45,413 bases of DNA from Candidatus Anaerobiospirillum stercoravium (GTDB taxonomy: Bacteria; Pseudomonadota; Gammaproteobacteria; Enterobacterales; Succinivibrionaceae), in the NCBI GenBank assembly GCA_019113025.1, contig DXIF01000160.1, positions 1 through 45,413 of the forward strand, read 5' to 3'. A program made the translations under genes and the position numbers. Positions 1,969 through 18,589 of this stretch are shown in pieces. The notes beneath the pieces are model-generated. The model saw nothing but the letters and a program-made list of their open reading frames with translations, was not told where the DNA came from and made no database searches. Within the stretch, counting starts at the first letter, position 1; each line of letters begins with the position of its first letter.

Positions 1969-2412
1969 GTGCTACCATGGCCTAGGTTTTTGCGGTCATT
2001 TGTGCGATTGCACAAAGCACACATTGAGCTCAGTCAGAGAGGTGGGGAAGTGGTGAGAAAGCACAAGAGCGTTGCGGCTAGTAGCGCAGCGCCGGGGACG
2101 GGCGCTGTGAGTGCAACTGAGGTTGAGCAAGCGCAGTACGCAGCGCAGTTTGCGCAGTTAGATCGCGAGGCGTGGTACACCCTAGGAGCGGCGCTTTTGA
2201 CGACGGTAGTGTTCTGGGGCGCGATTTTCCTGACCCATGACAGCGCTCTCACCGTGGGCTATATGCCACTGTGGTTTGTTTTAAGCTGCCTTGGGGGCTA
2301 TGTCTTTTCGGTGGTAATCGTCATTGCCCTAGTCAAATTCTGCTTAAAGCCATGTCAGCTTAAGGTCAAGTCCTATCATGAGCTGCATGAGAAATCACAG
2401 GGGGAGCACTAG
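1969..2412 (+). CDS. yhdT: YhdT family (DUF997) small membrane protein; true start probably a GTG near 2050
   Basis: Two TM segments (AWYTLGAALLTTVVFWGAIFLTHD..., LWFVLSCLGGYVFSVVIVIALVKFCLKP). Sits directly before panF as in E. coli yhdT-panF. Confidence 0.75.
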   Translation: MLPWPRFLRSFVRLHKAHIELSQRGGEVVRKHKSVAASSAAPGTGAVSATEVEQAQYAAQFAQLDREAWYTLGAALLTTVVFWGAIFLTHDSALTVGYMPLWFVLSCLGGYVFSVVIVIALVKFCLKPCQLKVKSYHELHEKSQGEH

Positions 2413-2413
2413 G

Positions 2414-3979
2414 ATGCAACAGATTCTGTCCTTAGTGCCGATTGGCCTGTTCTTTGTAGTCTTGCTCTTGGTGGGCTACGTGGTGTCCTATCAGGCCAAC
2501 CGCGCTACCTCCTTTAAAAAAGAGTACTTTCTGGGTTCGCAGAATCTAGGCGGCGTGGTCTTGGCCATGACCTTGGTGGCGACCTATGGCTCAGTCTCAT
2601 CCTTTGTCTCAGGCCCGGGCGTGGCGTGGAACCTAGGTTTAGGCTGGGTAGTATTTGCGGCACCGCAGATTATCACCGGCTTTTTAATCTTAGGCGTGGT
2701 GGGTAAGCGCATGACCATTTTGGCTCATCGCACTGAGAGCCTCACGGTCATCGATCTGCTATTTGAGCGCTTTCAGTCTCGCCTCGTGGCCTTGCTCTTG
2801 GCGTTGATGCTCATCATATTCTTCTTGGCTATGATTGTGGGCCAATTCATTGGTGGCGCGCAGATCTTTGCTGGTCTCACCGACATTGACTACAGCCTAG
2901 GCCTCATCATCTTTGCCTTGGTGACGGTGCTCTACTCCTCAGGCGGTTTTCGCGCCGTGGCCATCACCGATGCCATTTGCGCCATCTTGATGCTCACCGG
3001 CATGTTCATCTTAGGCTACGTCATTGTGCACGATGGCGGCGGCATCGAAAACATCATGGCGACCTTGAGCACGGTCAATATAGATGAAGCCACGGGTGTG
3101 AGCCGCAACCTTGAGTTTAACGCGGGCGGAGCGCTGCCGTTGGGCTTGCTTTTTAGCGCGTGGATCTTAGTGGGCTTTGCCACGGTGGGCTTGCCGCAAT
3201 CGCTGGTGCGCTGCATGAGCTACAAATCAAGCCATGAGCTGCACAAGGCCATGATCATCGCCACTGTTATCTGCGGTGCGCTCATGATTGGCATGACCAT
3301 GCTGGGCGTATTTGCGCGTGCGGTGATCCCGGATTTACCGCAAGGTGGCACCGATGCGGTCATCCCGACCTTGATTGCGCACAAGATGCATCCTTTAGTG
3401 GCAGGCGTGACCATCTTAGGCCCGCTGGCGGCCACCATGAGTACGGTCAGCTCCTTACTTATCGCCTCAGCCTCGGCCATTATTCGCGATTTGTTTAAGG
3501 CGCTGCGCCCGCAAGCTGAAGCTCATAAGGACAGAGGCCAGAGCGACAATGCCATCGCCGATGCGGTCAAGCCCGCGTTGAGCTACCACGAGAAGATCAT
3601 CATCAAGGGCGCGACCTTGGTCATGGGTGTCATCGCCATTGTCTTAGCACTGTTCCCGCTTGATATCGTGGTCTGGGTTAACCTCTTTGCCTTTGGTGGC
3701 CTCGAGAGCGCCTTTGTCTGGCCGGTGGTCCTAGGCCTGTTTTGGCGCAAGTTTAACACCTGTGGCGTATTGTGCTCGCTAGCAGCCGCCCTAGGGGTGT
3801 ACACCGCCTGCTCGGTGTTCAAGCTCTCGTTCTTTGCCTGCCATGCCATTGTCCCAAGCCTTGCCGCAGGCCTGATCGGCGCCTTAATCGGCACTTATCT
3901 GGGAGCGGCGGTACTAGGCCAGCGTATGAGCCGTCGCACCCACGACATCTTCTTCCCGCACCGCCCATGGCGCGAGTAA
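2414..3979 (+). CDS. panF: Sodium/pantothenate symporter PanF (SSS family)
   Basis: ATG at 2414 (MQQILSLVPIGLFFVVLLLVGYVVSYQANRATSFKKEYFLGSQNLGGVVLAMTLVATYGSVSSFVSGPGVAWNLGLGWV); SSS-family sequence throughout; yhdT context. Confidence 0.9.
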   Translation: MQQILSLVPIGLFFVVLLLVGYVVSYQANRATSFKKEYFLGSQNLGGVVLAMTLVATYGSVSSFVSGPGVAWNLGLGWVVFAAPQIITGFLILGVVGKRMTILAHRTESLTVIDLLFERFQSRLVALLLALMLIIFFLAMIVGQFIGGAQIFAGLTDIDYSLGLIIFALVTVLYSSGGFRAVAITDAICAILMLTGMFILGYVIVHDGGGIENIMATLSTVNIDEATGVSRNLEFNAGGALPLGLLFSAWILVGFATVGLPQSLVRCMSYKSSHELHKAMIIATVICGALMIGMTMLGVFARAVIPDLPQGGTDAVIPTLIAHKMHPLVAGVTILGPLAATMSTVSSLLIASASAIIRDLFKALRPQAEAHKDRGQSDNAIADAVKPALSYHEKIIIKGATLVMGVIAIVLALFPLDIVVWVNLFAFGGLESAFVWPVVLGLFWRKFNTCGVLCSLAAALGVYTACSVFKLSFFACHAIVPSLAAGLIGALIGTYLGAAVLGQRMSRRTHDIFFPHRPWRE

Positions 3980-4044
3980 CGGGTTCACTGGAGTTGCGCG
4001 AGTATCGCGCTGGTTGTGAGCCTGATTGGAAGCGTAGAGGATGC

Positions 4045-5124
4045 TCATTGCGGCGGCACGTCGATGATAATGAAGCCTTGAGCTTGCGCATAGGTGAGGA
4101 GTGCATGGTTCAAGGCGCTATATGCCATGTGGTTGGGACAATAGCAGTAGCGGCTGTCGCGGTGCGCTAAGTAGCCTTGGTACACCAAGAACTGAATCAG
4201 CCCTTGGGTTGAGGTAAGCGGTTGGGGCCACGGGTCAAGCATCATGAAGCCGCCTAAGATCTGCTCGATGGTGCTCATGTCAGGATGGTTCTGCGCCAGT
4301 ACCGCTTGCAGCGCGGTGGTGCTGGCTTTAGGCCAATTATACGCAAAGTGCGGAGTACTGGGCCCCGTTTGGCTTAAGAAGCGCTCAAGTGCAGCTGGGG
4401 CATAGAGCTTGGTTGGGGCACGCGGGCTCAAGCGCCAGCCGCCGTAATGGGTTCTTAGTTGAGCTAAGAGCTGTTTGAGCGTGAGCTGCAGGCGCTGAGC
4501 GGCGGCGCTCAGGGGCGCGGCATAGTAATGGGTCAGCTCGTCTGCGCTCAGTCCTACCAAGGCGCTAAAGTCGGGGTTGTCGTTAACGCTGAGCGTATAT
4601 CTCAAAGCTAAGGACGGCTGAAACGGGGTGTAGCTTAAGATCAGGGCAAAGCGGACCTGGTTCAGGGAAAAGAGCCAATGAAGCAAGGTGGTGCACAGAT
4701 CTGATAACTCGGCTGCGCCCAGCTGCATCCACAGCGGAATATCCCCGACGTCGAGCAAGAACGTAAGTTCGTGCTGATCCGAGAGGTCGGATAAGCGTAA
4801 CAACAAATCTTCCAAGTTGCGCTCAGACTCCCATGCCGCAACTTGCGGCAATCCGGCGTGGCTATAGGCCCGAATGAGCTCAGAGCGCCAAGCGCGCTCA
4901 TAGGTATTGGGCGCTTCGGGCGTGCAGTTTTGTGTTACATCACCCAGGTTGAGCCTAATCACCGGGCAGGGATGCGTGCTTTGGGCAAAGAAGGCCTCAA
5001 GTTGAGTGAGCAGGGGGCTGGGTTCTAAGCAGGGCGGACAGTGCAAAGTAGCATATTCGTAGTAGTGAACTAAATGCTCCAGCAACTTCGTCTGAGCTGC
5101 GCTGAGTTCGGATAAATTGATCAT
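4045..5124 (-). CDS. Uncharacterised protein resembling the AAA-ATPase-like family (PF09820-type) with degenerate nucleotide-binding motifs
   Basis: HYGGWRLSPRAPTKLYAPAALERFLSQTG resembles the YDGYRFS...VYNPWSVLNFL signature. PLLTQLEAFFAQ and LTFLLDVGDIPLWMQL occupy the expected P-loop and Walker B positions but lack the catalytic residues. Confidence 0.5.
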   Translation of the reverse strand: MINLSELSAAQTKLLEHLVHYYEYATLHCPPCLEPSPLLTQLEAFFAQSTHPCPVIRLNLGDVTQNCTPEAPNTYERAWRSELIRAYSHAGLPQVAAWESERNLEDLLLRLSDLSDQHELTFLLDVGDIPLWMQLGAAELSDLCTTLLHWLFSLNQVRFALILSYTPFQPSLALRYTLSVNDNPDFSALVGLSADELTHYYAAPLSAAAQRLQLTLKQLLAQLRTHYGGWRLSPRAPTKLYAPAALERFLSQTGPSTPHFAYNWPKASTTALQAVLAQNHPDMSTIEQILGGFMMLDPWPQPLTSTQGLIQFLVYQGYLAHRDSRYCYCPNHMAYSALNHALLTYAQAQGFIIIDVPPQ

Positions 5125-5190: not shown

Positions 5191-8100
5191 TTAGCTGACG
5201 GGGCCATGGGGCGTGCCGCGCCCTGCCAGCACCACTAAGTAGCAGTAGCCGCGCGCGGCGACCTCCGGGGCCCAGTATGGGGCAAAGAGCGTGACGTTGA
5301 GGCGTGCGGCGAGCGCTGCCCGCAGCTTGGCGTCAGATAAGTCAAGCTCCTCTTGCTTGAGCCCTTGCAGCTGTGGGGTAAAGCTTTGCTGTTGGGCGAT
5401 GGCATCTTGCAAGCGCTTGATGTCAGCTTTGACTGTATCCTCGTAGGTCCAGACCACGATAGTGCTGACAAACAGGCCTGTGAGCGTGGCCACATGGTGC
5501 GCCTGCATCTGGGCTCTAATCTTACTTTTGGCTGAGAGGCGGCCAATGGTGATTAAGGGGGCACTTGCTTGGGCTCCGTATTGTGCTCCGCAGCCGTAGC
5601 CGGGGCGCAGGGCTTGAGCTGAGGTTTGTGCTTGCGCTTGGTGCTGGATGTAGCAGTGGTCGCCTTGGGCTACGATCAGCACGGGATCGTGCACTTTGAC
5701 GTGGCGGGCGATGTAATCATTTATGCCCGCGCGCGCGGCGCTGGCATTAAAGGAGATGACGTAGTTGTCGACACTATCGTCGTTTTCGCTCCAGAGCAGC
5801 TGACTGTCTGGGGTAATGAAGCGCCGGTTCTCGTCTAAGGCGCGTTCCCGCTCGCCATAGTAGAGATAAAGGTACTTGCGGGCCCGGGTATAGGCCACGT
5901 AGTACAGGCGCCGCTCTTCAGCCAGATCTGCTTGTTCGTCCGCGCTCAGGGGCAGGTTGTAGGCGGCCCATTGCTCTTGCTCGTTTGAGTCATAGCGGCC
6001 CTTGCTAAAACGTAGCTGCCCGGGCTCCGGCTTGAGGTAGTCGTGGCTCATCAGGGGCAAGTCGGCACTGCTCGGAGGAATCAGCACCAAGTCGTACTCA
6101 AGGCCCTTGACCTTGTGCATGGTCGAGAGGGTCAGGCTGACGCGCTGATGGTGGACTAAGTGTTGCCCCGCCATGCTCTCATAGAGCTTGTAGCAATGGC
6201 CGCCATCGTCGCGCGTCAGCAAGTCAAGGTAGTACTCTAAGAGGTCGGTCCAAGTGTAAGTGATGCCGGAAATCATGGTCGCGTTAAAGCTCAGCGCAAG
6301 GCAGTAGGCCATATCAAGCTTGGCTTGATCCCAATTGGGGTAGCGCTCCATCAAGCTCTGGGTTAGGAGCTTGAGCGCGGTGGCACTGTCCTCGTGCGTC
6401 AGCGGCTGCAGCTGCGCATAAAGCTGCTCCAGCGGGGCATGGAGGGGGAGCGCCGCTGCGGTCAGCTTGGTGGTCACTGGGCCGAGCTTGAGCTCATGTG
6501 CGCCTTGGGCCTTGATGAAGTGAGCGAGGGCGTAGTACTCGCGCTCACGCCATAGAGCAATGCTGCTGGAGCCTTGCACCCGCACTTCGACCTGAGCCAG
6601 AATTTCCGGAGGCAGCGCCTGCACTTGTTCTAGGGCGCGGTAGACCTCATTATTGGTTCTAAAGAAGAGCGCCAGGCTTGTAATGCGCAGGTACTTGCTT
6701 TGCAGCAAGAGCTCGTCGGCACTGTGCGGACGCGGCACCGCTGGAATCGCCTCTGGGGCGGGCGCCTCTTTAGAAGCTTGTGGCGCGTACGCCTCCTGAG
6801 GATGAGCTGCTTGCTCTGTTATGCCCTCGACCGTGCGCGCGACTTGGGTTGGGGGCTCTTGCTGTGCACGTTGGGCCGCGGCGCTGTTGGCGCTGAGCGC
6901 AGCGGCAGCGAAAATGAGCTGTTCATAGCGCTCGCAGGCGGCACTGTCTTGCAGTCCTAATTGCGCCGCCGCTTCTTGGGCGAGGAGCTGGGCCTTCTCA
7001 TTGCTCTTTTTGACTAGGCCGCTGATGATATTGCTCAGGTCTTGGGCCCAGTAGCGTACGCGCCGCTGTTGGCGCTGTGCTTGGTAGATCGCCGCGTTGG
7101 TGACATCAAATAAGGCGCAGTAGGCGGTCTTCTTAGGCGCATATTTCTCCAAAAGCGGGGCGCTGTGCGCGGTGTACTCGGGATTGAGCGCATAAGGCTC
7201 AGCCCGGGCGAGAATCTTAGGAAAGGAGCGGTAGTTGAGCTTTAGGCTCAAGGTGGTAGGCTCAAACAAGCGCGCTAAGTCGCGATAGTAGGGCTCAGGG
7301 CCTAGGCAGGCGGCGTACTGCGCGGCGCTGATGCTGCGGCTGCCGGTAGCATTGGGGTCTTGCAGCATATTGGCGACGCGGTTAAAGCCGTAGATACTTT
7401 GGTTGATATCGCCAATGGTGAAGAGATAGAGCGGGGTGCGGTAGCACTGCTTGAGTAGGTGTAAGAGCTCCAATCTTGCGTGGGTAATGTCTTGGAACTC
7501 ATCGATCATGATGTAGCGCAAGGCGCCAAAGCGCTTGATAAAAAGCTGCGGCTGGGCCTTGAGCTGGGTGATCAAGGTGCATTCCCACTTATTTGGGTCG
7601 ATGTCATTGAGGGCGTTCCCGAGGCAGACCTTGGCGAGGCTATGGAAGGTAAAGATCGCAAGCTTGCGCCCAATCTTGCGCAGCCCCAAATTGGTAAAGA
7701 GCCGGTCTAACCTGGTCTTGAGCTCGACGACCACGGCACGGTTGTAGGCCAAAATCAGCACGGACTCAGGGGCGACATGCTCTTGGTAAATCAGGCGCAC
7801 GCAGCGTAGCGCCAAGAGGTGGGTCTTGCCGGAGCCTGGCCCTGCCATAACATTGAGGCTGAGGTCGACCGGGCTTTGGTAGACTGCCCATTGCTCGGGA
7901 TTAGCGCGCAGCTTCTCCTCTTCCAAGGCGAGGTTGGAGGCGGTGATTGCGCTTAAGATCGAGCTGTTGGCATCGGAGAAGTTACCGATGTGCTTGATGT
8001 AGTCGCCGTAATCTTGGGACTTAAAGAACTCCTCGATAAAGAGACGGCGCTTGTCGTCGCTCACCTCTTGGCAGTAGACCTGCATAAGCGCGAGGCGCGC

Positions 8101-11100
8101 GCGCTTGAATTGTGCCAGCAGCTCAAATTGCTTGCGCCGCTGGAAGAAAGGCGACTCAAGGTTCGGTGCGCTATCAAGTGGCCGTGCAACGCACTCCTCT
8201 GTTACCGTAAGCTCATAGCCATGGCTAATCATAGCTGAATGGCGCACTAAGCCCACCGCCTGCAAAAAGGCTAGGAGCTGGGAAAAATAGCCATAGGTGT
8301 TGAGTTCGCGACTGAGCTCCCAGTACCATTCGCGCACCTGAGCGCGTGATTGGCTCAGCTCGTAGTTATTAAGCAGCGCGTCGCTGGACTCATGGCGCAG
8401 TCCCAGAGCAAATACGATTTCGGCCCAGTTGTTGAGGTAGGTTGGCGCGGTCAGTTCGGGCGCGACCTGTTCGGGGCCGGTGCTATCTTGAGCACTATCA
8501 TCTGGGGTGACGTCGGTGTTTTCGGCAAGGCGGGCAAAGGTCACCGCGGTGGTGGTGACCGGGTTTAAGCCTTGAGTGCGGTTGAGCTCGGTTAATAAGT
8601 GCCAGCTGTCTTCATAGAGCAGGTCGAGCAAAAGATAGAAGGATTCGCTCCAAGTCTTGACCACTAAGGTCGCAGGAGTGGTGTCATTTTCTGAGGCGAC
8701 CTTGGTGAGCTTGACGTGGGGCATGAGCTGCAACAGTGCGCTCACGCCTGACTTCACGTCTGGAAGCAGATGGTGCTCTAAGTAGGTGTTAAGGTCGCGT
8801 TTGCGCGCGCCTTGGCCGGTGAGCCATGGCACCGCTGGATTCCCCTCAAGGCCAATATCGCCCTCGACCATAAACTCATCGGCATAGGGCGCGATGAGCT
8901 CACGTAAGGTGGTAGTGAGCCAATTGTTGGTAAAGCCTAAACCCGGATAGTCCGGCAGCGGCTCGCGCCTACGCTCATTAGTGCTGTCATCAAAGCGCTC
9001 AAAGGTGGCGGCCTCTGAGCGGCGCTTGATTTCAGCGCGGAAGTCTTGGTACGAGCGCTCTAAAATCAGGGCGCACAGGCGCAAGGTAAGGTTTAAATGC
9101 GGCAAGACCGGCGCGGTCAGCTCAGGCGTAGTCACGGCGCGGCTGACGTAGTATTGCACCTCCGCTTGGTTAAAGCGCCGGGCGTAATCGACGCTGTGGC
9201 CCAAGTTAAAGCTCAGGCTAAAAGGCAGGTTGAGATTGAGCGCGCCAGCGGCCATCAGCTCCAAAAGCGCATTGATCGTGCTGCCAAGGCTCAGGCGCTC
9301 TTTGAGTGGGGTATTGTGATTGCACTGCTGCAAGAAGTATTGCAGGTCAAAGATCAGCGCGACGTGCTCGGGCAAGTTAGTGTCTGCTTCGTTGGCTTCG
9401 TTTGCTTCATCGGTGGCGCGGCAGGCTTGATCGAAATCATTAAGCTGCGCTTGCAGTACAGTGATGACGCAGTTGAGCGCCAATTGTTCGCGCGCACTCA
9501 GGCGCGTGCTCGGGGCGGCATTGCGCGCCTCATTGGGGGCGAAGCTGAAACCTTCACGGTTACGTAAGAGCTGAGTAAACGGGGTGCGCACTAAGGTCAG
9601 CTGCAACGGGCAGGGAGCCCGAAAGCCCAGCTTGATGCGCCCGAGGTCTTCTAAGTGGTAGAAGAGCAAGGTGCTGTTATGGGCTAGGGCCTTATTGCTG
9701 ATGTTCTCGGGGTCGCTCGGAGCCAAGACTTGGGAGACATCACGGGCAAAGAGGTCGGAGGGCACCACTACCGGCTCAGTGAGCGCTGCGCTCATAGGGC
9801 CAAAACGGCTGACATAGGTGCGCACCAAGTCATCAGCTAGCATCAGGTGATCCCAGCTGATTAAGGACTTGTTGAGGCGCTCCATCGCCTTGTCAAAGTC
9901 CTCTTGATGGTACAAGCAGAGCGCGGGCAGCAGCGCGCGCGCCCCGGTTACCGGATCTTGCGGGAAGGCCGCTTCGTATTGGGCTTGCGATCTCCCGGCG
10001 CGTCCCACCTCTTGCAGGTAGTCCTCGAACACCGCAGAGGGCTCAGCATGGAGCACGTAGTGGATATTCGGCAGATCCATGCCCATGCCAAAGGCCTTGG
10101 TGGCACAGAGCAAGTACAGGGGCTGATTGCTTGACAGCAGGCTTTGCTCCAAGGTCGAGCCGCTGCGCTCATTGAGCGCCGCTTGGTCGTTAAACCACAG
10201 GGCGCTCTGGCTTTTAACCTGGGCGGCAATGGCGCGCTCTAAGTTTTCCTGGTAGCGTGTAAAGACGTGCTCCCGGGCGCGGGCGCTCATCTGGGCATGG
10301 AAAAATCCCACGTGCGCAGCGAGCTTGAGGATCGGATCATCCGGATCAATCACCGCGACATCGCAGCACAGATCATGAAGCTTGTTCGGGCGATAGGAAA
10401 AGGAGTTCTCATCGGTTAAAGCGGCGCTCAGGCGCTGCTTAAGCGCCGAATCGGACGCAAAGAGCTCCGTGGGGCTTGCCTCTTGGGCATAGCGCTCGTT
10501 TTCTTGCACTTCGACCGCGGCGCCGAAGGAGCTCGCAGCCTCCTCTTCTTGCGCCGCTTGGTCCATCGCCGCCAATAGCTCGGTGAGCTTGCGCTCCAGC
10601 TCCGTGGTCGGCTCGTTAGGATCGCTTTCAGGGGCTAGGTTCGAGGCTGAGTTTGAGGCGAAGTTCGCGGCAAAATCCGGGGCGAAATCCGTTGACCCCA
10701 GCTCTATGGAGCTCAAGTAGGACGGTTGGTCGTCGAGTTTGCGCAAGACCTCGGGCAAAGGCTCAGGCTCAAACTTGAAGTCAGGATGACGCTGCTGGTA
10801 GTGATAGAGGTAGTTTAAGTGCGCCGCATAGCTCTCTAAGGCTACGCACAGGGCTTCGGTGCTGTGGCGCAGCTGGCAGAAGACCAGCATGCGGCTTTGT
10901 TCAAAGTCGATGTGCTCCTTGCGGATAAAGTCGATGATGGCAGCGACGCGCGCGTGCAAGTCACTGGGCACTTCTTGGGTCGAGAGGCCGATGTGCGGGC
11001 GAATCGGGTTGTAATTGGTGCCGATCTCGCCTAAGAGCAGGTGCTCGGGGCGCAGGTATTGCTCCAGATCGGTCACCACTTGAGTGGTCATAGTCGCCGA

Positions 11101-14100
11101 GCACATGATGACGTTAAAGTCGTACTCAGAGCGCAGCTGGGCGATGAGCTGCGCGGCGTAAATGTAGTCGGGGCGGAACTCCTTACCCCATTGGGAGATG
11201 CAGTGGGCCTCGTCGAAGATAAAGAACTCGCCTTGCTTGCCATCTTGCTCATAGCGCTCGGTGAGCAGCTTTACAAAGTAGCGGCTGCGCAAGCGCTCCG
11301 GGGTGATGTAGAGCAAGGTGGTGACGCCACTTCTGATGCGCTCTAACACTTGGCGCGTTTCATAGCTGGGACGGTCCGAGGACAGATAGTCAACGCTCAA
11401 ATAGTTCTTAGCGCGCAGCGCTCTGACCTGATCGACCATGAGCGCGCGCAGAGGCGTGATAACCACACTCAAACGCCCCGAGTAAAAGGAGCGATACCAC
11501 GCCGGACCTTGGAATAGCACCGACTTGCCGCCACCGGTGGGCAGGGAAATCAAGGCGTCAGCCGAGCGTTTAATCAGCGGCGGTAAGGCTGTGAGCTGAT
11601 AGGAGCGCCACTCATGGCCCCCGATAAACATATGGGAGATAGCGCGCAGCGCCTTGGTCAGTTCAAGCTGCCCGGCCTCATCGTTGCCCTCAAGGCGCGC
11701 CAATACCTCCGCCCCTTGCTGCGGATTGAGTAAGAGGGGGCTGTGTGCTGTCACCACAGCGCTGGGGACCGCAGCTTCCTCCGCGTGCGGCACGCTCTCA
11801 GGGGCTAGCTCGGGCTCATTGGCCGCGATTACTGGGGACGGGGCGGTTTGCGCTAAGTGCTGGGCCATGCTCTCTAAAGAGGCCAAGGCCGCAGCGGTCT
11901 CGGTCGTGGCGCTAAAGAAAGGCTGCGCCAACTCTTGGGCGCGCAATTTGTCGGCGCGGCTGGCAAAGGGCTTGAGATAGCACGGGAGAAGACGCACTAG
12001 ACTGTCAAGGTCACTAGGCGTCTCCCAGCCCTCATTGAGCGCCGGTTCTAAGAGGTAATAGTGAAATTGATTAATGCGCCCACCCAGCTTGAGATAGAGC
12101 GCGGTGCTAAGACCGTGTACTAAGATCAAGAGCAAGGCTTGGTCGGCACGCGTGCCCCCGGCGCGCAGCGCCGCCTGAAGCGTCGTTAGGTGCGCACTCA
12201 AGCCCCCTAAACCTAAGTGATAGAGGCTACGTTGGACGCTCTGACCGGCACTGAGCTCAACTAAGTCCTGATGGGCGTTGAGCTCAAGGCTATTGATCAC
12301 GATGAGCGCGCCTTCAGGGAGCGCGGCGAGAACTTGGTCGGCGTCGCTGGTTGGGGCCTTGGTGTCAGCGCACAGAAAGTCGGGCTCTAAGGCGCTGAGG
12401 CTTAAGAGCTGGATGCGGGCGGAAAGCTCGGGGTAATGGGCGTCAAGATAGGCCTTAAGTGGCGCGACATCGCGCTCGTACTCGATGAGATAGCATAGCG
12501 GCTGCTCTGGGTGTAGGGCTGCAAGCTGCACTAAGAGCGCTACTTGCGCGGCAAAATAGCGCGCCCGCACCCGACTGCGATAGCTGCAGCGGGCGGCCAA
12601 AAGCCCGGGATCGGCGCTGCCTTGCTCTAAGTCGCGCGCTAAGGCGCTGGCAGCCTCAGGTAGCGCTTCAGCGGGGGCGTTAGTGCCTGAAGGCGGCTCT
12701 GTGGTGCTGACATAGTTGAACAGCGGCAGCTCGCCTGCGTTCTCATCCCAGATTGCGGGAGTGAGCTCCATGCTCTCCACTGAGGCGCAAGCGCTCCAGA
12801 GCGCGCGCTGCGGCGCTGCTGCCATGGTGTAGAGGTTGATGGTGCCATCCAGCAGCCGGGTGAGGATGACGCGCGGCTCGACCTCGTTCTCTTCCACGTT
12901 TTCGGCCGCGTGCTCGGTAGCGTGCTCGGCCGTGGCCGAGGTTGTGTCGCCGTGCACTTGCAGTAAGCGGTGCGCGGTGGCGCGGCTTAAGACATTAAGC
13001 TGCTCACTATATTGCTCTAAGGCGAGCGTCAGATCCTCCTGGCCTTGCTGCTGGTAGTCATAGGGATTGAGTCCCAGCGCTAGGGCGTGGGGCATCAGGC
13101 TGTCGTTTTCGAGCTCCTCCGTGGTGCCCACCAAGAGTACATGTCGCCCCTTAAGCTGCGCGGGCGTTAGATTATCCAACGCATTGAGCTCGTCCCATGC
13201 GGTAACGGGAAAGCCAGCCGCCGCTAAGTCCGCTGCGCTTACTACCAAGGCACGTAGCGCCTTAAGCTCGGCGGCGCTGAGGGCTAAGCTGGAGGTGGTA
13301 GTGGCGCCTAGGGCCGTGGCGATGGGAGCGCGGGCCGGGGGCGGCAGCGCGCTGAGCGCGACTAAGCCCGGGGCGCCCTTGAGCGCGAGGCGTAACAGCT
13401 CATAAAGCGCGGGGGCCGCAGGCTCCAACAGCGGCAGGGCGCTTTTGATCAAGTACATGCGGTCATGAGGTGCGGTGGCACTCAGGTCGCTCAGCGTCAG
13501 CGGGGCGAGCTCTTGCTCCCGGCGCGCACGCGCCCAGTCTTCAAGGCTGAGGACCGGAGCGGCGGGAACCGTGGCTAAAGCCGAGCTGGGGCGCAGCGGT
13601 GTCAGCGCGGCAAGTTTAGGCGCCAGCTCGGGCGGGCCCAAGAACAGGTAGGAGCCTAATTCCTCTGACAGGTGGCTAAGGGGGCAACCGACCTTATGGG
13701 CTAAGGTCAGGGTAAGGGGGAAAATCCATGGTTGCACGCGCGCGGCACGCTGGTACAGACGCGTTGGCAGCAGGACCATGAGCGGGGCAAAGTCCGGGGC
13801 ACTTAAGGTGGCGACAGCGCTTAAAAGCTCACTTGAGGCGTTAGCAAGGAGCGCGGTACTAAGTGCCGGGCGCTGGGCGCGCACCTCCTTATCGCTTAAG
13901 GCACAGCACAGCGTGAGGCAGGCAGTGGCAAGCGCACGCTTTTCCTCGGGCAAATGCCACTGCGGCGCCCAGTCATACGTGGGCGTCAAGCCTAAGAGCT
14001 CAAGGCTGCCGCTGAGGTACTCATCAGTTAAAACCGCGGTGAGCGGCGCGATGATGGGCCCGAGTTCTTGGGCGCAAAAGGCTGTAAAATGCGGGTTGGT

Positions 14101-17100
14101 CTGAAGTAAGCTTGCATGCGCCAAGCGTAGCGGCTGCGGCAGTAAGGCCAAAAGCTCGAGGCTGTCTTGGTTGGTGCCATCAAGCTCCATTAAGGCCTCG
14201 GGGCTGATAATTTGGCTTAAGGCGGTACTTAGAGCTTGCGCCGTATGAGGCTGAGCGCGCCACGCGCGCACCCAGCTTAAGACCGTGGCGTTGCTGCTCT
14301 GAGTTTTGATGAGCCCGGCCAGCAAGGATGCCAATACTGGTAGGTCAGCGGCTGTCGGCTGCTCAACCCAGCGCCCAAAGGCTACTTGATGCTGCAAGAG
14401 GCAGCGGCTGGCATAGCTGGGGCTCAGCAGGAGCAGGGCGCGTAGCGCATCGGGCTCTTGGTGCTGGAGCTTAAAGCTGACCATGCTCTCTAACATCGAA
14501 CCTAAGACATTGGGCTTACCCCCAAGGCTAGGCCGCTCTTGCGCTTGCTGCAAGATCGGTCGCAAATCTGCTGAGAGCGCGAGCAGTGCGTCCCCCAAAG
14601 CGCCGGCGACCGCACCAAAGTGCCGCCCTAAGATCATGAGGTTGGTTACCACCAAGCCTAAGCGCTCCGCATCGGTTTGCTTCAGTAACTGGGCGTAGAG
14701 CTCAGGCTCAACTGCGGCACTCAGCTGCAAGAGCTGGTAGATAGTACTAAGCTCACTCTCCGTGTAATCCATGAGATTTAAGGACAGCCCCGCCTGGCAC
14801 AGCGCCAGGAGCTGCTCGCGGTCGCGCGCCGTGGGTTTGGTTATAAGGGCCATTAACGCCGTGATTTGCGGCAGCGGTAACTGCGCTAAGGTCGATGGGG
14901 GCAAGAGCTCCCAGCAGGTGCGCCGGGCGCTCTTACTTTTGGCATGCGTCCAGAGCGCCGCGCACCAAGTGCAGTCAGCCTCAGCGGTGCTTAGCGCCGC
15001 GGCCACGGTGGCAAGCCCCACGCTATGAACCAAATAGAGCCACGCCGCTAAGGCCTCAGGCTGAGCGCTCAAGGCGCGCGAAAATGGGCGCACCTCGTTG
15101 GTAGCGTTTTCAGGGGACGACAGCGGCACCAAGCGCAGCGCTTGGGCTAGGGTCTTGAGCACCAAGTTAAGGGCGCGCGCGTCGGCGCGCTGCAAGTAAG
15201 AGCTGAGTGTCACTTGTTGGGTACTCAAGAGCGAAGTAAGCGCGGATGCAAGCGTCGCTAAGGCGTGGCCGCTGAGCTTAAGTAACAGCTTATGGGCTTG
15301 TGTCCACAGCGCCTCAAGCTCAGGATGGACGAGGGCCGCTGCTAGCAGCGCCGCTAAGCGCTCTGGGTCTGCCTCCGCCGCGGGCGCCTCCGGCTCAGTT
15401 AGCGTGGTGAGCAAGGCCGCGCCCCAGCAGGCGGCGCGCTCGGGCGCGCTGGCGCTCAGAGCACTCAACCAGCGGGTCAGCAGGGGGCCATCCAGCGCGG
15501 CGCTGAGGCCGCACAGCCACGCTGCCTCAGGCTGTGCGGGAAGCTGCTTACTTAGCGCGCTAAGTAGTGCTGCTTGATCCTCGGGATTGAGCTCAGTCAG
15601 GCCCGCGGCGATGAGCTGAGGATGCGCAGTTAAGAGTGCGCTGAAGCGCTCCGGTTGAGTCTGATAGGCTGAAAGCAGGGCCGCGGCAGCCGCGGTGGCG
15701 GTTGCGGCGGTTGCGCTCGGCGGATTGCTGGGCACGGTGCTCGGCGCTGCGCTCAGCGCCGCGCTAATTTGGGCCTCAAGCGCGTCTAGGTCAGAGCAGC
15801 ATGGGACGAGTTCGCTGTAGTCGTGACCAAGCGCAGCATAGGTGCGCTCAGGGGTGAGGCTCAGCTCTGAGGTAAAGAGTGCTAATAGCGCGCGCTCGGG
15901 GGCGAGCTCGGCCAGAGCGGCCGCAAAGTCAGGGCCGCTGGCGCTCTGGAGTACGCTGCTTAAGCCCAGATAAGCGGCGACGACGCTGAGCTCGCAACTT
16001 AGGGCCTCAGTGCCGTGCAGCTGCTGAATTAAGGTGTGCAGGGCATGCCCGCGCTCGCTGCTGGGGGCGGGGCGTAACAGTGCGCCCAGGTAGCTATGGA
16101 GCAATTGCTCGCAGCATAGCAGCAAGTGTAGCTGCGGATTATGGGCGTCGTGCTGTGCTAGGTGGTACAGCGTCGCCGCGCTTAAGGCCGCTATGATATG
16201 GGGCAAGACCTGAGGCTTTGCTCCTAAGTAGGAACCGAGCTCGCCTGCCCTCAGCTGATGCTTAAGCTCAGTTATGGACGCTAAGGTCAGGGTGCTCAGA
16301 GGCAAATGGGCGCCGACGGCACTAAGCCACATCGTTCCGGGCTGCTGTAAGTAGTGCTGGCAGGCGCTCAGGGCACCGGTGAGCGCGGACAGATCTGGGG
16401 CCACCGTGGCGTTGGGCGACGGAGCTAAAGCAGCGCTTAGTACCTTAAGCCACGGGCTGGCGACGATGAGCTGGGCTTGATCGGCGCGTTGGCGTGCGTG
16501 ACTGCTATTGCGGGCGATGCTCAGGGCCGCCACCGCCATAAGGTCGAGATAATCGAGGCGACTTGCAGCCACACATTGGGTTAGCAGCTGCGCTGCTTGC
16601 GCTAGCAAGGTAGAGCTGGGCGTCGCCCGATGATATATCTGGATAAAGGCACTGTTGTAGGCCGCTAATAGCGCTAACAGCTCGTAGCGCTCAACCGCGC
16701 TGATGGGGCGCACGCCCACCACACACAGGCTCTCGCCTTGGGGCATGAGCTCAAAGAGCACAGGCTGCGCCACGCTATCTATCTGGGCTAAGTTGGGAGC
16801 GCTGGGATCTAAGCTTGCAGGGGTGCTGGTTAGGCTGATGGTGGCATCATGCTCGGCGCTGGGGGCAATGCTACTAGGCGTAAAGCTCGTAAGGCGTGCG
16901 CGCTCAACCTCGTTTAAGGCCCAGAGGGGCGTGGCGATGGTGCCTAAAGGCTGGTTTGATGCCGCATCAGGGACGGTTATGGTTAACAGGCCCAAGTGCA
17001 GCGTCGGGAGGACGGTTGGCAGCTGGCGCTGCAAACTCAGGGCGCGCTCACTGCACTGAAGACTCAGCGCGCTCCACGGGGCACAGGTGATGGGATCGCG

Positions 17101-17217
17101 TCCAGCGCTTTGAGCTTTATGCCAACGCGCGGCGACGGCGCTCAGCGCCGCAGCAGCAGGGGTGAGGTGCGGCGCGCGGCCCTGTGGTGCGTCCTGCGTG
17201 CTCAATTGGTCTTGCAT
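5191..17217 (-). CDS. Giant 4008-aa dual helicase: long Ala/Leu-rich N-terminal region, RecQ-like SF2 core, UvrD-like SF1 core
   Basis: RecQ-like: ALISLPTGGGKSVLFQGP, FFIFDEAHCISQWGKEFRPDY, MCSATMT, AFGMGMDLPNIHYVLHAEPSAVFEDYLQEVGRAGRS. UvrD-like: NVMAGPGSGKTHLLALRCVRLI, YIMIDEFQDITHARLELLHLL, TIGDINQSIYGFNR, STMHKVKGLEYDLVLIP, EERRLYYVAYTRARKYLYLYYG. One uninterrupted ORF. Confidence 0.92.
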   Translation of the reverse strand: MQDQLSTQDAPQGRAPHLTPAAAALSAVAARWHKAQSAGRDPITCAPWSALSLQCSERALSLQRQLPTVLPTLHLGLLTITVPDAASNQPLGTIATPLWALNEVERARLTSFTPSSIAPSAEHDATISLTSTPASLDPSAPNLAQIDSVAQPVLFELMPQGESLCVVGVRPISAVERYELLALLAAYNSAFIQIYHRATPSSTLLAQAAQLLTQCVAASRLDYLDLMAVAALSIARNSSHARQRADQAQLIVASPWLKVLSAALAPSPNATVAPDLSALTGALSACQHYLQQPGTMWLSAVGAHLPLSTLTLASITELKHQLRAGELGSYLGAKPQVLPHIIAALSAATLYHLAQHDAHNPQLHLLLCCEQLLHSYLGALLRPAPSSERGHALHTLIQQLHGTEALSCELSVVAAYLGLSSVLQSASGPDFAAALAELAPERALLALFTSELSLTPERTYAALGHDYSELVPCCSDLDALEAQISAALSAAPSTVPSNPPSATAATATAAAAALLSAYQTQPERFSALLTAHPQLIAAGLTELNPEDQAALLSALSKQLPAQPEAAWLCGLSAALDGPLLTRWLSALSASAPERAACWGAALLTTLTEPEAPAAEADPERLAALLAAALVHPELEALWTQAHKLLLKLSGHALATLASALTSLLSTQQVTLSSYLQRADARALNLVLKTLAQALRLVPLSSPENATNEVRPFSRALSAQPEALAAWLYLVHSVGLATVAAALSTAEADCTWCAALWTHAKSKSARRTCWELLPPSTLAQLPLPQITALMALITKPTARDREQLLALCQAGLSLNLMDYTESELSTIYQLLQLSAAVEPELYAQLLKQTDAERLGLVVTNLMILGRHFGAVAGALGDALLALSADLRPILQQAQERPSLGGKPNVLGSMLESMVSFKLQHQEPDALRALLLLSPSYASRCLLQHQVAFGRWVEQPTAADLPVLASLLAGLIKTQSSNATVLSWVRAWRAQPHTAQALSTALSQIISPEALMELDGTNQDSLELLALLPQPLRLAHASLLQTNPHFTAFCAQELGPIIAPLTAVLTDEYLSGSLELLGLTPTYDWAPQWHLPEEKRALATACLTLCCALSDKEVRAQRPALSTALLANASSELLSAVATLSAPDFAPLMVLLPTRLYQRAARVQPWIFPLTLTLAHKVGCPLSHLSEELGSYLFLGPPELAPKLAALTPLRPSSALATVPAAPVLSLEDWARARREQELAPLTLSDLSATAPHDRMYLIKSALPLLEPAAPALYELLRLALKGAPGLVALSALPPPARAPIATALGATTTSSLALSAAELKALRALVVSAADLAAAGFPVTAWDELNALDNLTPAQLKGRHVLLVGTTEELENDSLMPHALALGLNPYDYQQQGQEDLTLALEQYSEQLNVLSRATAHRLLQVHGDTTSATAEHATEHAAENVEENEVEPRVILTRLLDGTINLYTMAAAPQRALWSACASVESMELTPAIWDENAGELPLFNYVSTTEPPSGTNAPAEALPEAASALARDLEQGSADPGLLAARCSYRSRVRARYFAAQVALLVQLAALHPEQPLCYLIEYERDVAPLKAYLDAHYPELSARIQLLSLSALEPDFLCADTKAPTSDADQVLAALPEGALIVINSLELNAHQDLVELSAGQSVQRSLYHLGLGGLSAHLTTLQAALRAGGTRADQALLLILVHGLSTALYLKLGGRINQFHYYLLEPALNEGWETPSDLDSLVRLLPCYLKPFASRADKLRAQELAQPFFSATTETAAALASLESMAQHLAQTAPSPVIAANEPELAPESVPHAEEAAVPSAVVTAHSPLLLNPQQGAEVLARLEGNDEAGQLELTKALRAISHMFIGGHEWRSYQLTALPPLIKRSADALISLPTGGGKSVLFQGPAWYRSFYSGRLSVVITPLRALMVDQVRALRAKNYLSVDYLSSDRPSYETRQVLERIRSGVTTLLYITPERLRSRYFVKLLTERYEQDGKQGEFFIFDEAHCISQWGKEFRPDYIYAAQLIAQLRSEYDFNVIMCSATMTTQVVTDLEQYLRPEHLLLGEIGTNYNPIRPHIGLSTQEVPSDLHARVAAIIDFIRKEHIDFEQSRMLVFCQLRHSTEALCVALESYAAHLNYLYHYQQRHPDFKFEPEPLPEVLRKLDDQPSYLSSIELGSTDFAPDFAANFASNSASNLAPESDPNEPTTELERKLTELLAAMDQAAQEEEAASSFGAAVEVQENERYAQEASPTELFASDSALKQRLSAALTDENSFSYRPNKLHDLCCDVAVIDPDDPILKLAAHVGFFHAQMSARAREHVFTRYQENLERAIAAQVKSQSALWFNDQAALNERSGSTLEQSLLSSNQPLYLLCATKAFGMGMDLPNIHYVLHAEPSAVFEDYLQEVGRAGRSQAQYEAAFPQDPVTGARALLPALCLYHQEDFDKAMERLNKSLISWDHLMLADDLVRTYVSRFGPMSAALTEPVVVPSDLFARDVSQVLAPSDPENISNKALAHNSTLLFYHLEDLGRIKLGFRAPCPLQLTLVRTPFTQLLRNREGFSFAPNEARNAAPSTRLSAREQLALNCVITVLQAQLNDFDQACRATDEANEANEADTNLPEHVALIFDLQYFLQQCNHNTPLKERLSLGSTINALLELMAAGALNLNLPFSLSFNLGHSVDYARRFNQAEVQYYVSRAVTTPELTAPVLPHLNLTLRLCALILERSYQDFRAEIKRRSEAATFERFDDSTNERRREPLPDYPGLGFTNNWLTTTLRELIAPYADEFMVEGDIGLEGNPAVPWLTGQGARKRDLNTYLEHHLLPDVKSGVSALLQLMPHVKLTKVASENDTTPATLVVKTWSESFYLLLDLLYEDSWHLLTELNRTQGLNPVTTTAVTFARLAENTDVTPDDSAQDSTGPEQVAPELTAPTYLNNWAEIVFALGLRHESSDALLNNYELSQSRAQVREWYWELSRELNTYGYFSQLLAFLQAVGLVRHSAMISHGYELTVTEECVARPLDSAPNLESPFFQRRKQFELLAQFKRARLALMQVYCQEVSDDKRRLFIEEFFKSQDYGDYIKHIGNFSDANSSILSAITASNLALEEEKLRANPEQWAVYQSPVDLSLNVMAGPGSGKTHLLALRCVRLIYQEHVAPESVLILAYNRAVVVELKTRLDRLFTNLGLRKIGRKLAIFTFHSLAKVCLGNALNDIDPNKWECTLITQLKAQPQLFIKRFGALRYIMIDEFQDITHARLELLHLLKQCYRTPLYLFTIGDINQSIYGFNRVANMLQDPNATGSRSISAAQYAACLGPEPYYRDLARLFEPTTLSLKLNYRSFPKILARAEPYALNPEYTAHSAPLLEKYAPKKTAYCALFDVTNAAIYQAQRQQRRVRYWAQDLSNIISGLVKKSNEKAQLLAQEAAAQLGLQDSAACERYEQLIFAAAALSANSAAAQRAQQEPPTQVARTVEGITEQAAHPQEAYAPQASKEAPAPEAIPAVPRPHSADELLLQSKYLRITSLALFFRTNNEVYRALEQVQALPPEILAQVEVRVQGSSSIALWREREYYALAHFIKAQGAHELKLGPVTTKLTAAALPLHAPLEQLYAQLQPLTHEDSATALKLLTQSLMERYPNWDQAKLDMAYCLALSFNATMISGITYTWTDLLEYYLDLLTRDDGGHCYKLYESMAGQHLVHHQRVSLTLSTMHKVKGLEYDLVLIPPSSADLPLMSHDYLKPEPGQLRFSKGRYDSNEQEQWAAYNLPLSADEQADLAEERRLYYVAYTRARKYLYLYYGERERALDENRRFITPDSQLLWSENDDSVDNYVISFNASAARAGINDYIARHVKVHDPVLIVAQGDHCYIQHQAQAQTSAQALRPGYGCGAQYGAQASAPLITIGRLSAKSKIRAQMQAHHVATLTGLFVSTIVVWTYEDTVKADIKRLQDAIAQQQSFTPQLQGLKQEELDLSDAKLRAALAARLNVTLFAPYWAPEVAARGYCYLVVLAGRGTPHGPVS

Positions 17218-17303
17218 ACGAAAAGCCTCACCTCAAAAAGTCTCTGCTTGCTACTTGCTCGCCCCATTGTAACCTATGAGCCGTGGGCGTGCGCTCAAGC
17301 GCA

Positions 17304-17382: not shown

Positions 17383-18333
17383 CTATTGCGGCTGGGTGCT
17401 CGGGGCGTTCTCTTGCGCTTCAATCTCGGCGACACGCTGCTTTAAAAACTCAATGATGTGCGGGCCAATGTCCGGGTGGCGAATCGCGGCATCGATAAAG
17501 GTCTCGGCGTAGCCTTCCTTATTGCCGCAATCGTGGCTGCGTCCGACTACCGCGTAGGCGTTAACGCTTTCGATGTTCATCAAGAGATCGATGGTGTCGG
17601 TAAGTTGGAACTCACCGCCAGCGCCCAGCGGAGTGCGCTTAAACAGTGGCCAAATCTCGGCCGGGAGTACATAGCGGCCCACTACCGCGTAATCTGACGG
17701 CGCTTCCATGACCGCCGGCTTTTCCACGATGCTCTTGATCGCGACATCTTGGCCCGGCTTGATGTCGGCGCCACTTAAGTCGACGATACCGTAGGAGATG
17801 ACATCCTCATGCGGTACACGCTCGACCATGATTTGGGCCACGCCCGTTTCCTCAAAGCGCTTGACCATGGCGGCAAGATTGGTGGTATGCGGATCGGCTA
17901 AATGGGTGTCGATCACAACGTCTGGCAGCAGTACCGCAAAGGGGTTCTTGCCCACAATTGGGTAGGCGCACATGATGGCGTGCGCTAAGCCCTTGGCCTC
18001 GCCTTGGCGCACGTGCATGATGGTGACATCCTTTGGGATGATGTTTTGCACCTCAGACAAGAGCTGGCGCTTAACACGCTTTTCCAAGGTGGCCTCGAGT
18101 TCAAACGAGGTGTCGAAATGGTTTTCGATCGCGTTTTTAGAGGAGTGGGTGACCAAGACAATGTTCTTAATGCCTGCGGCCACCGCTTCATTGACCACGT
18201 ATTGGATCAGCGGGCGGTCAACTAAGGGCATCATTTCCTTAGGAATGGCCTTGGTGGCAGGTAACAGACGCGTCCCCAGTCCCGCCACCGGAATAATGGC
18301 GTACTTGATGTTGCCATAGTTCATATCAGGCAT
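17383..18333 (-). CDS. galU: UTP--glucose-1-phosphate uridylyltransferase
   Basis: [45 protein letters not shown]; start at [12 protein letters not shown] (18333). Confidence 0.93.
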
Positions 18334-18589
18334 AAGAAAATCCTTACTTCCAAAGCCCGCTTGGGGCACAGCGCAAGGCCAACCTAGGGCCCCAGGCTTG
18401 GGCACTGGGCTTGAGTTGGGCCTTAAGCTCACTAGACTCAAATTAGATGCAAGCCTTATAGTTAGCCGCTTGCAGCGCGTTCTTGTTACAGTACCGCGCC
18501 CCTGTCGGCATTGCAAGAACGCAACGGTAATTTGTATAGCGTGGGCACAGAAAAAGTGAAGCGTTACAGTGAGGGCGCAAGATGCGCCA

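Follow-up and report, generated by a model that had tools for sequence, protein, structure and literature searches.

A giant RecQ-UvrD fusion protein in Anaerobiospirillum: an exceptional member of a family of helicase fusions

Introduction

What is a bacterial cell doing with a protein of 4,008 residues that carries a RecQ-type helicase core, then a UvrD-type helicase core, behind a very long N-terminal region? The gene in question lies in a 45,413-nucleotide stretch of DNA (the window) from Candidatus Anaerobiospirillum stercoravium, a gut bacterium of the Succinivibrionaceae; the window is a whole contig, and its draft genome is 86% complete. The locus holds a real, single gene of 4,008 codons, and this giant is an exceptional form of a fusion family already known rather than a protein of a new category. 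The reading that we prefer, with a probability of roughly one half, is that the product is a single very large accessory enzyme that remodels DNA with two 3'-5' motors, a RecQ-type superfamily (SF) 2 motor followed by a UvrD-type SF1A motor, on an N-terminal scaffold, and that it arose from the family of exonuclease-RecQ-UvrD fusions.

A single gene with two motors

At the base composition of the window, the chance of a frame as long as this one is about log10 P = -66, so the frame is not a product of chance. GC content at third codon positions stays at 0.69-0.76 along the frame, like that of the neighbouring genes, and the GC content by codon position is uniform. The features of the gene and its surroundings are collected in Table 1.

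Table 1. Features of the giant gene and its neighbourhood, in window coordinates
Feature	Position	Strand	Residues	Remarks
DUF997 and panF-like symporter (SSF)	1969..3979	+		One border of variable slot
Downstream companion gene, AAA-ATPase_like (PF09820) homologue	4045..5124	-	359 aa	Worn down, without Walker A or nuclease
Giant RecQ-UvrD fusion gene	5191..17217	-	4,008 aa from ATG	About 441 kDa; no internal stop
Conserved C-terminal tail	5194..5817	-	3801-4008	69-72% identity to nearest species; no family match
UvrD-type SF1A core	5818..7932	-	3096-3800	All motifs intact
UvrD motif VI, YVAYTRARK	5875-5901	-		Motif mapping
UvrD motif V	6091-6129	-		Motif mapping
UvrD motif II, IDEFQD	7483-7506	-		Motif mapping
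UvrD motif I, AGPGSGKT	7822-7845	-		Motif mapping
Conserved linker between motors	7933..9957	-	2421-3095	No RQC, HRDC or Cys4 zinc site recognised
RecQ-type SF2 core	9958..11637	-	1861-2420	All motifs and aromatic-rich loop intact
RecQ motif VI, QEVGRAGR	9991-10014	-		Motif mapping
RecQ motif V, with GMGMDLPN	10063-10107	-		Motif mapping
Variable insert in second RecA domain of RecQ core	10348..10797	-	2141-2290	Alignment and identity profile
RecQ-type aromatic-rich loop, AHCISQWGKEFRPDY	11164-11208	-		Motif mapping
RecQ DEAHC	11200-11214	-		Within aromatic-rich loop; motif mapping
RecQ motif I, TGGGKS (Walker A)	11521-11538	-	1894	Motif mapping
Predicted alpha/beta RecA-like domain without Walker motifs	11908..12588	-	1544-1770	AF2, pLDDT 43-87, best at 1549-1610
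Predicted alpha-solenoid (ARM/HEAT-like)	13843..16689	-	177-1125	AF2 model, about 950 residues
Predicted small beta-rich domain	16705..17001	-	73-171	AF2 model, pLDDT 50-76
Likely ribosome-binding site, GAGGTGAGG	17226..17234	-		8 nt before the giant's ATG; read from sequence
galU-like nucleotidyltransferase	17383..18516	-		Other border of variable slot

The first-pass annotation had described one polypeptide with complete RecQ-like and UvrD-like motif sets, about 1,880 residues ahead of the RecQ Walker A, and no canonical RecQ Cys4 site, and this description holds. The ORF is single and uninterrupted, ORFs of similar length occupy the same locus in three independent assemblies, every classical motif of both helicases was found where it had been placed, and the RecQ Walker A lies at residue 1894. 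The cysteines that follow the RecQ core lie scattered and include no Cys4 zinc site, and the RQC domain gave no match anywhere in the genus, while seven control genomes did give matches.

Motifs I-VI and the RecQ-specific aromatic-rich loop identify the first motor as an SF2 helicase of RecQ type (Pfam DEAD, 4.4e-27; Helicase_C, 1.1e-9), and its first RecA domain is 88% identical to that of the nearest species. Against the full-length RecQ equivalog TIGR01389 the giant scores 169.9 bits, below the cut-off of 640 bits, and the core is thus RecQ-like but not a RecQ orthologue. It shares the SF2 core and the aromatic-rich loop with E. coli RecQ and RqlH-like helicases, but differs from them in lacking an RQC domain or zinc site, in its fusion to UvrD and in a large insert in the second RecA domain. 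The second motor carries motifs Q and I-VI of the UvrD/Rep SF1A helicases and the UvrD_N/UvrD_C pair (Pfam UvrD-helicase, 5.8e-30; UvrD_C, 1.7e-13). Although all SF1A motifs are common to UvrD, PcrA, Rep and the giant, the latter reaches at most 83.5 bits against their NCBIfam equivalogs, whose cut-offs lie above 900, and has a long insertion between motifs IV and V. Both motif sets are invariant in seven homologues, wherever the sequence is complete.

The N-terminal half

In Pfam, NCBIfam and PADLOC nothing matches residues 1-1830 with confidence, and sequence searches of Pfam and PDB with the N-terminal half gave nothing. The structure of this region is described from AlphaFold2 (AF2) models, each of which is based on four sequences and is of modest confidence. 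Most of the extra 1,880 residues are predicted to form an alpha-solenoid, with pLDDT mostly 70-88 over residues 510-1000 and under 50 for much of 264-430. Its structural neighbours include beta-catenin, karyopherins, UNC-45 and the condensin subunit Ycg1 at Z scores of 6-8.8, values that are common for helical folds.

Ahead of the solenoid, the small beta-rich domain is possibly a degenerate OB fold of the cold-shock (CSD) or S1 type. It matches in position the CSD of a Hymenobacter homologue and the two S1 domains of a tandem paralogue in one species (both described below); its likeness to cold-shock domains was judged by eye and from the model only, against an approximate CspA row. No CSD or S1 profile of Pfam matches the N-terminus of the window protein, and S1 matches were confined to the paralogue.

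Between solenoid and RecQ core, residues 1544-1770 may be a dead RecA-like helicase domain, which we treat as a lead only. The top structural matches of this model are XPD/DinG proteins at a Z score of 7.8 (2vl7, rmsd 4.2 over 139 residues), below 8 and from a low-confidence model, and plain Foldseek returned no significant match. Homology to DinG found no support from sequence: hhalign gave probabilities of 0.1-0.2%, much as for shuffled profiles, and an apparent 99.6% match proved to be a one-column artefact. Searched with a profile built from the genus alone, neither Hymenobacter nor Rhodobacter showed the domain. One could go further and picture a machine of three RecA modules, in which a dead XPD/DinG-like domain joins live RecQ and UvrD motors on a karyopherin-like solenoid that evolves fast and senses DNA that is foreign or damaged. 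This would be a bacterial DNA remodeller of a new kind, arisen in a family without recQ; we consider this picture doubtful.

By sequence comparison, the N-terminal half evolves much faster than the motors, yet under purifying selection. Identity to the nearest species is 88-90% in the N-domains of the motors versus 33-57% before the RecQ core, and dN/dS is 0.25-0.44 in the N-terminal half versus 0.08-0.25 in the motor cores, with dS near saturation. Because dN/dS is below 1 throughout, the whole protein is under purifying selection.

Distribution of the giant and the absence of recQ

Homologues occur in six of the ten species of the genus, with open frames of 4,008, 3,973, 3,804, 3,816, 3,174 and 4,383 aa, and the frame is uninterrupted in every complete genus member. 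The giant was not found in the other four (G001, G002, G004 and G008), all of which are drafts, and in G004 the corresponding slot is split across contigs. One carrier, G009, has a second giant in tandem, whose frame is about 3,550 aa long. The N-terminus of this copy (L010 16780-26580, L101, L102) has two S1 RNA-binding domains that are 47% identical to a multi-S1 protein of about 565 aa encoded in the same genomes (presumably ribosomal protein S1); this looks like a case of domain capture. A further copy, in a different Succinivibrionaceae genus (G017; L106 3221-9823), runs off the end of its contig and is at least 2,201 aa long. Its RecQ half has decayed, lacking Walker A and motif VI, while the UvrD motifs are intact, so the two motors are not always both needed.

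A canonical recQ gene above the TIGR01389 cut-off was found in none of 24 sampled Succinivibrionaceae genomes, versus 15 of 16 relatives from other families of the order, which points to an apparent loss of recQ across the family. Five of the six carriers (G003, G005, G006, G007 and G009) have no match to the RecQ model at E<=1e-20 other than the giant; the sixth, G000, keeps a separate RecQ-like helicase of 737 aa. Three of the species that lack the giant (the draft genomes G001, G004 and G008) have no RecQ-type match at all. Since they have neither recQ nor giant, the function of the giant is apparently dispensable.

The wider RecQ-UvrD fusion family

For a census, a profile covering the linker plus the UvrD N-domain was run against 369 genomes of Gammaproteobacteria, 398 of Pseudomonadota and 395 of the phylum to which a Chitinophagales genome belongs; it gave about 8, 14 and 14 open frames of dual-helicase size, respectively. 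All of these are 1,487-1,845 aa long except the window gene. The annotation had stated that smaller RecQ/UvrD fusions are known and had called the present length unusual; the census bears out both points, as frames above 3,000 aa occur only in this genus among the censused genomes. SF2-SF1 fusions of about 1,500-1,850 aa are present in roughly 2-4% of the sampled Pseudomonadota and Bacteroidota genomes, and 24 proteins from the census and the plasmid loci were confirmed to have both cores. No paper on a RecQ-UvrD fusion was found in the openly accessible literature searched, and within that literature the smaller family appears to be uncharacterised.

Like the smaller fusions (for example WP_223295316 from Allochromatium and WP_022275194 from Bacteroides, both annotated as 'RecQ family ATP-dependent DNA helicase'), the giant has a RecQ core followed by a UvrD core in one ORF, with the same motif sets. 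Nearly all of the smaller proteins start with a DEDD-type exonuclease (motifs D.E, GHN..D and D...A), an assignment that rests on motif alignment. No such domain is detectable in the giants, where the exonuclease profile scores no better than on shuffled sequence. The profile does match two proteins that had gone into it, the Hymenobacter protein (1.8e-34) and one encoded upstream of the Rhodobacter fusion (1.6e-33); by phmmer, the Hymenobacter exonuclease region has no match in PDB. The giants also differ from the smaller fusions in having about 1,000-1,600 more residues ahead of the RecQ core and in forming a separate core clade: in the core tree, the giants, the G017 copy, Hymenobacter and Rhodobacter group together with support of 1.0 and stand outside the 1.5-1.85 kaa family.

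The closest core relative outside the Succinivibrionaceae is a pair of proteins from plasmid pHsw1 of Hymenobacter swuensis (WP_044000431 and WP_044000430; 1,421 and 1,302 aa). It has a large N-terminal region, as the giants do, but unlike them it carries a CSD and an exonuclease and is encoded by two overlapping genes, the first with CSD, exonuclease and first RecQ half and the other with the second RecQ half and UvrD. In two Hymenobacter plasmids (L107 8614-8672; L112 6480-6560) the break in the RecQ core falls at nearly the same place, between its RecA domains, with overlapping stop and start codons, of the ATGA type in one of them; the H. cellulosilyticus copy has a seeming frameshift at Walker A. 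In Rhodobacter sp. CZR27 (WP_096787916; 1,774 aa, plasmid) both motors are in one protein, as in the giants, whereas the CSD and exonuclease form a separate upstream gene and there is no giant scaffold. At two loci of the smaller family (L173 7465-11387; L175 294-4234), the exonuclease-RecQ-UvrD gene is preceded by genes for a 554-aa XPB-like helicase and a protein of 754-762 aa with a trace of Helicase_C_3, possibly forming a multi-helicase operon. The polyvalent giant proteins of plasmids are likewise very large and combine UvrD-like with SF2 helicases (PMC5512222), but their SF2 component is SWI2/SNF2 and not RecQ and their context is that of conjugative elements.

Genomic context

In five species (G000, G003, G006, G007 and G009) the giant lies between galU and panF/DUF997, on the galU side; in G005 it is at another location. 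A companion gene sits between the giant and panF in G000, G003 and G009. The window companion is 25-31% identical to its homologues in G003, where PF09820 was matched, and G009; the homologue in G004 also carries PDDEXK_9. In G001, G002 and G008 an unrelated gene of about 800 aa with no Pfam match replaces the giant (L117 5547-8048, L118 3892-6327 and L119 2740-5139), and the panF-DUF997 block is inverted relative to the window. In G006 a 2,121-aa protein with long acidic repeats and no Pfam match is encoded between galU and the giant (L125 8291-14653).

What PADLOC found among 42 neighbours of the giants was limited to two generic mad3 matches and one helicase of Rep/PcrA type. The giant itself was considered as Gabija GajB, PsyrT or DpdF and rejected, because the PADLOC matches span only the generic helicase core and the partners (GajA, PsyrA and the Dpd cluster) were not found among the neighbours. 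A pattern-based scan of viral contigs found no relative of the giant. For the smaller family, a PADLOC survey of 98 neighbours, which has no background rate, gave type I restriction-modification, a type III methyltransferase and several candidate defence genes.

Possible functions

Helicases of the RecQ and UvrD families move in the 3'-5' direction on single-stranded DNA. From this family knowledge we infer the polarity of the giant's motors, and its substrate, stripping activity and cellular role are likewise proposals from the analysis. The ancestor would have been an exonuclease-RecQ-UvrD fusion; in the giant lineage the exonuclease may have been lost or may have diverged past recognition, with the long solenoid and the small possible OB-fold domain built up in its stead. 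The solenoid and small domain are the parts that differ between species and, for that reason, probably form the surface that touches DNA or partners. They may bind single-stranded DNA or partner proteins and place the enzyme on DNA that is branched, stalled or foreign, where the RecQ core would open the duplex and the UvrD core would travel along the freed strand and strip bound protein, with no cutting. Because no nuclease was recognised, unwinding and protein removal, not degradation, are a plausible output. The giant would then supply a DNA-processing activity that is accessory and not essential, in bacteria whose family has no ordinary RecQ. Four species without the giant, the separate RecQ-like helicase of G000, the decayed RecQ half in G017 and the modest AF2 models count against this reading.

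The first-pass annotation had left both genome maintenance and anti-phage roles as possibilities. Maintenance is favoured by the missing recQ and the stable position of the giant; a role in conflict draws support from its patchy presence, the variable slot, the duplication and the relatives on plasmids. Maintenance in its strongest form would make the giant a vertically inherited replacement for the lost recQ, active in recombination and fork repair. The family-wide absence of recQ lends this some weight, as do the conserved position and aromatic-rich loop, but four congeners lack the giant, three of them without any RecQ-type match, and the protein has no RQC domain and a decayed RecQ half in G017, so that we hold such a substitution to be possible but rather unlikely. 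Much the same caution applies to a single-gene anti-phage or anti-plasmid system, in which the fast-evolving solenoid would recognise foreign DNA or a signal from an invader, which the two motors would unwind or block. Such a system would fit presence in six of ten species, a galU-panF slot whose contents vary by species (including the unrelated gene of about 800 aa and an AAA-ATPase/PDDEXK_9 gene), the tandem duplication in G009, the fast-evolving N-terminal half, the plasmid-borne closest outside relatives and, in the neighbour survey without background control, smaller family members that adjoin restriction-modification or candidate defence genes. It fits poorly with one chromosomal position in five species, the lack of a recognised nuclease, dN/dS below 1 everywhere and the absence of relatives from the scanned viral contigs. 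A place in a defence island, in particular, found no support in the context survey, where the neighbours are housekeeping or AAA-ATPase_like genes and PADLOC detected no defence partners.

Two further explanations concern the polypeptide itself. That the ORF is translated or processed to separate scaffold, RecQ and UvrD proteins is suggested by the Hymenobacter homologues split within the RecQ core, but the single uninterrupted frame in all complete genus members makes it improbable. A draft metagenome contig could also owe a fused gene to faulty assembly or gene calling; independent assemblies from other species show the same ORF and the same order of genes, which, together with the uniform codon-position GC, leaves next to no room for this.

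Significance

On the preferred reading of a two-motor accessory enzyme, two mechanistically different helicases are held in one chain, intact across the genus, and the giant would allow a direct test of cooperation between SF2 and SF1A motors. The lineage would also show how a modest exonuclease-helicase fusion may be rebuilt to more than 4,000 residues, with the nuclease dropped and a scaffold gained, in bacteria that lack an ordinary RecQ.
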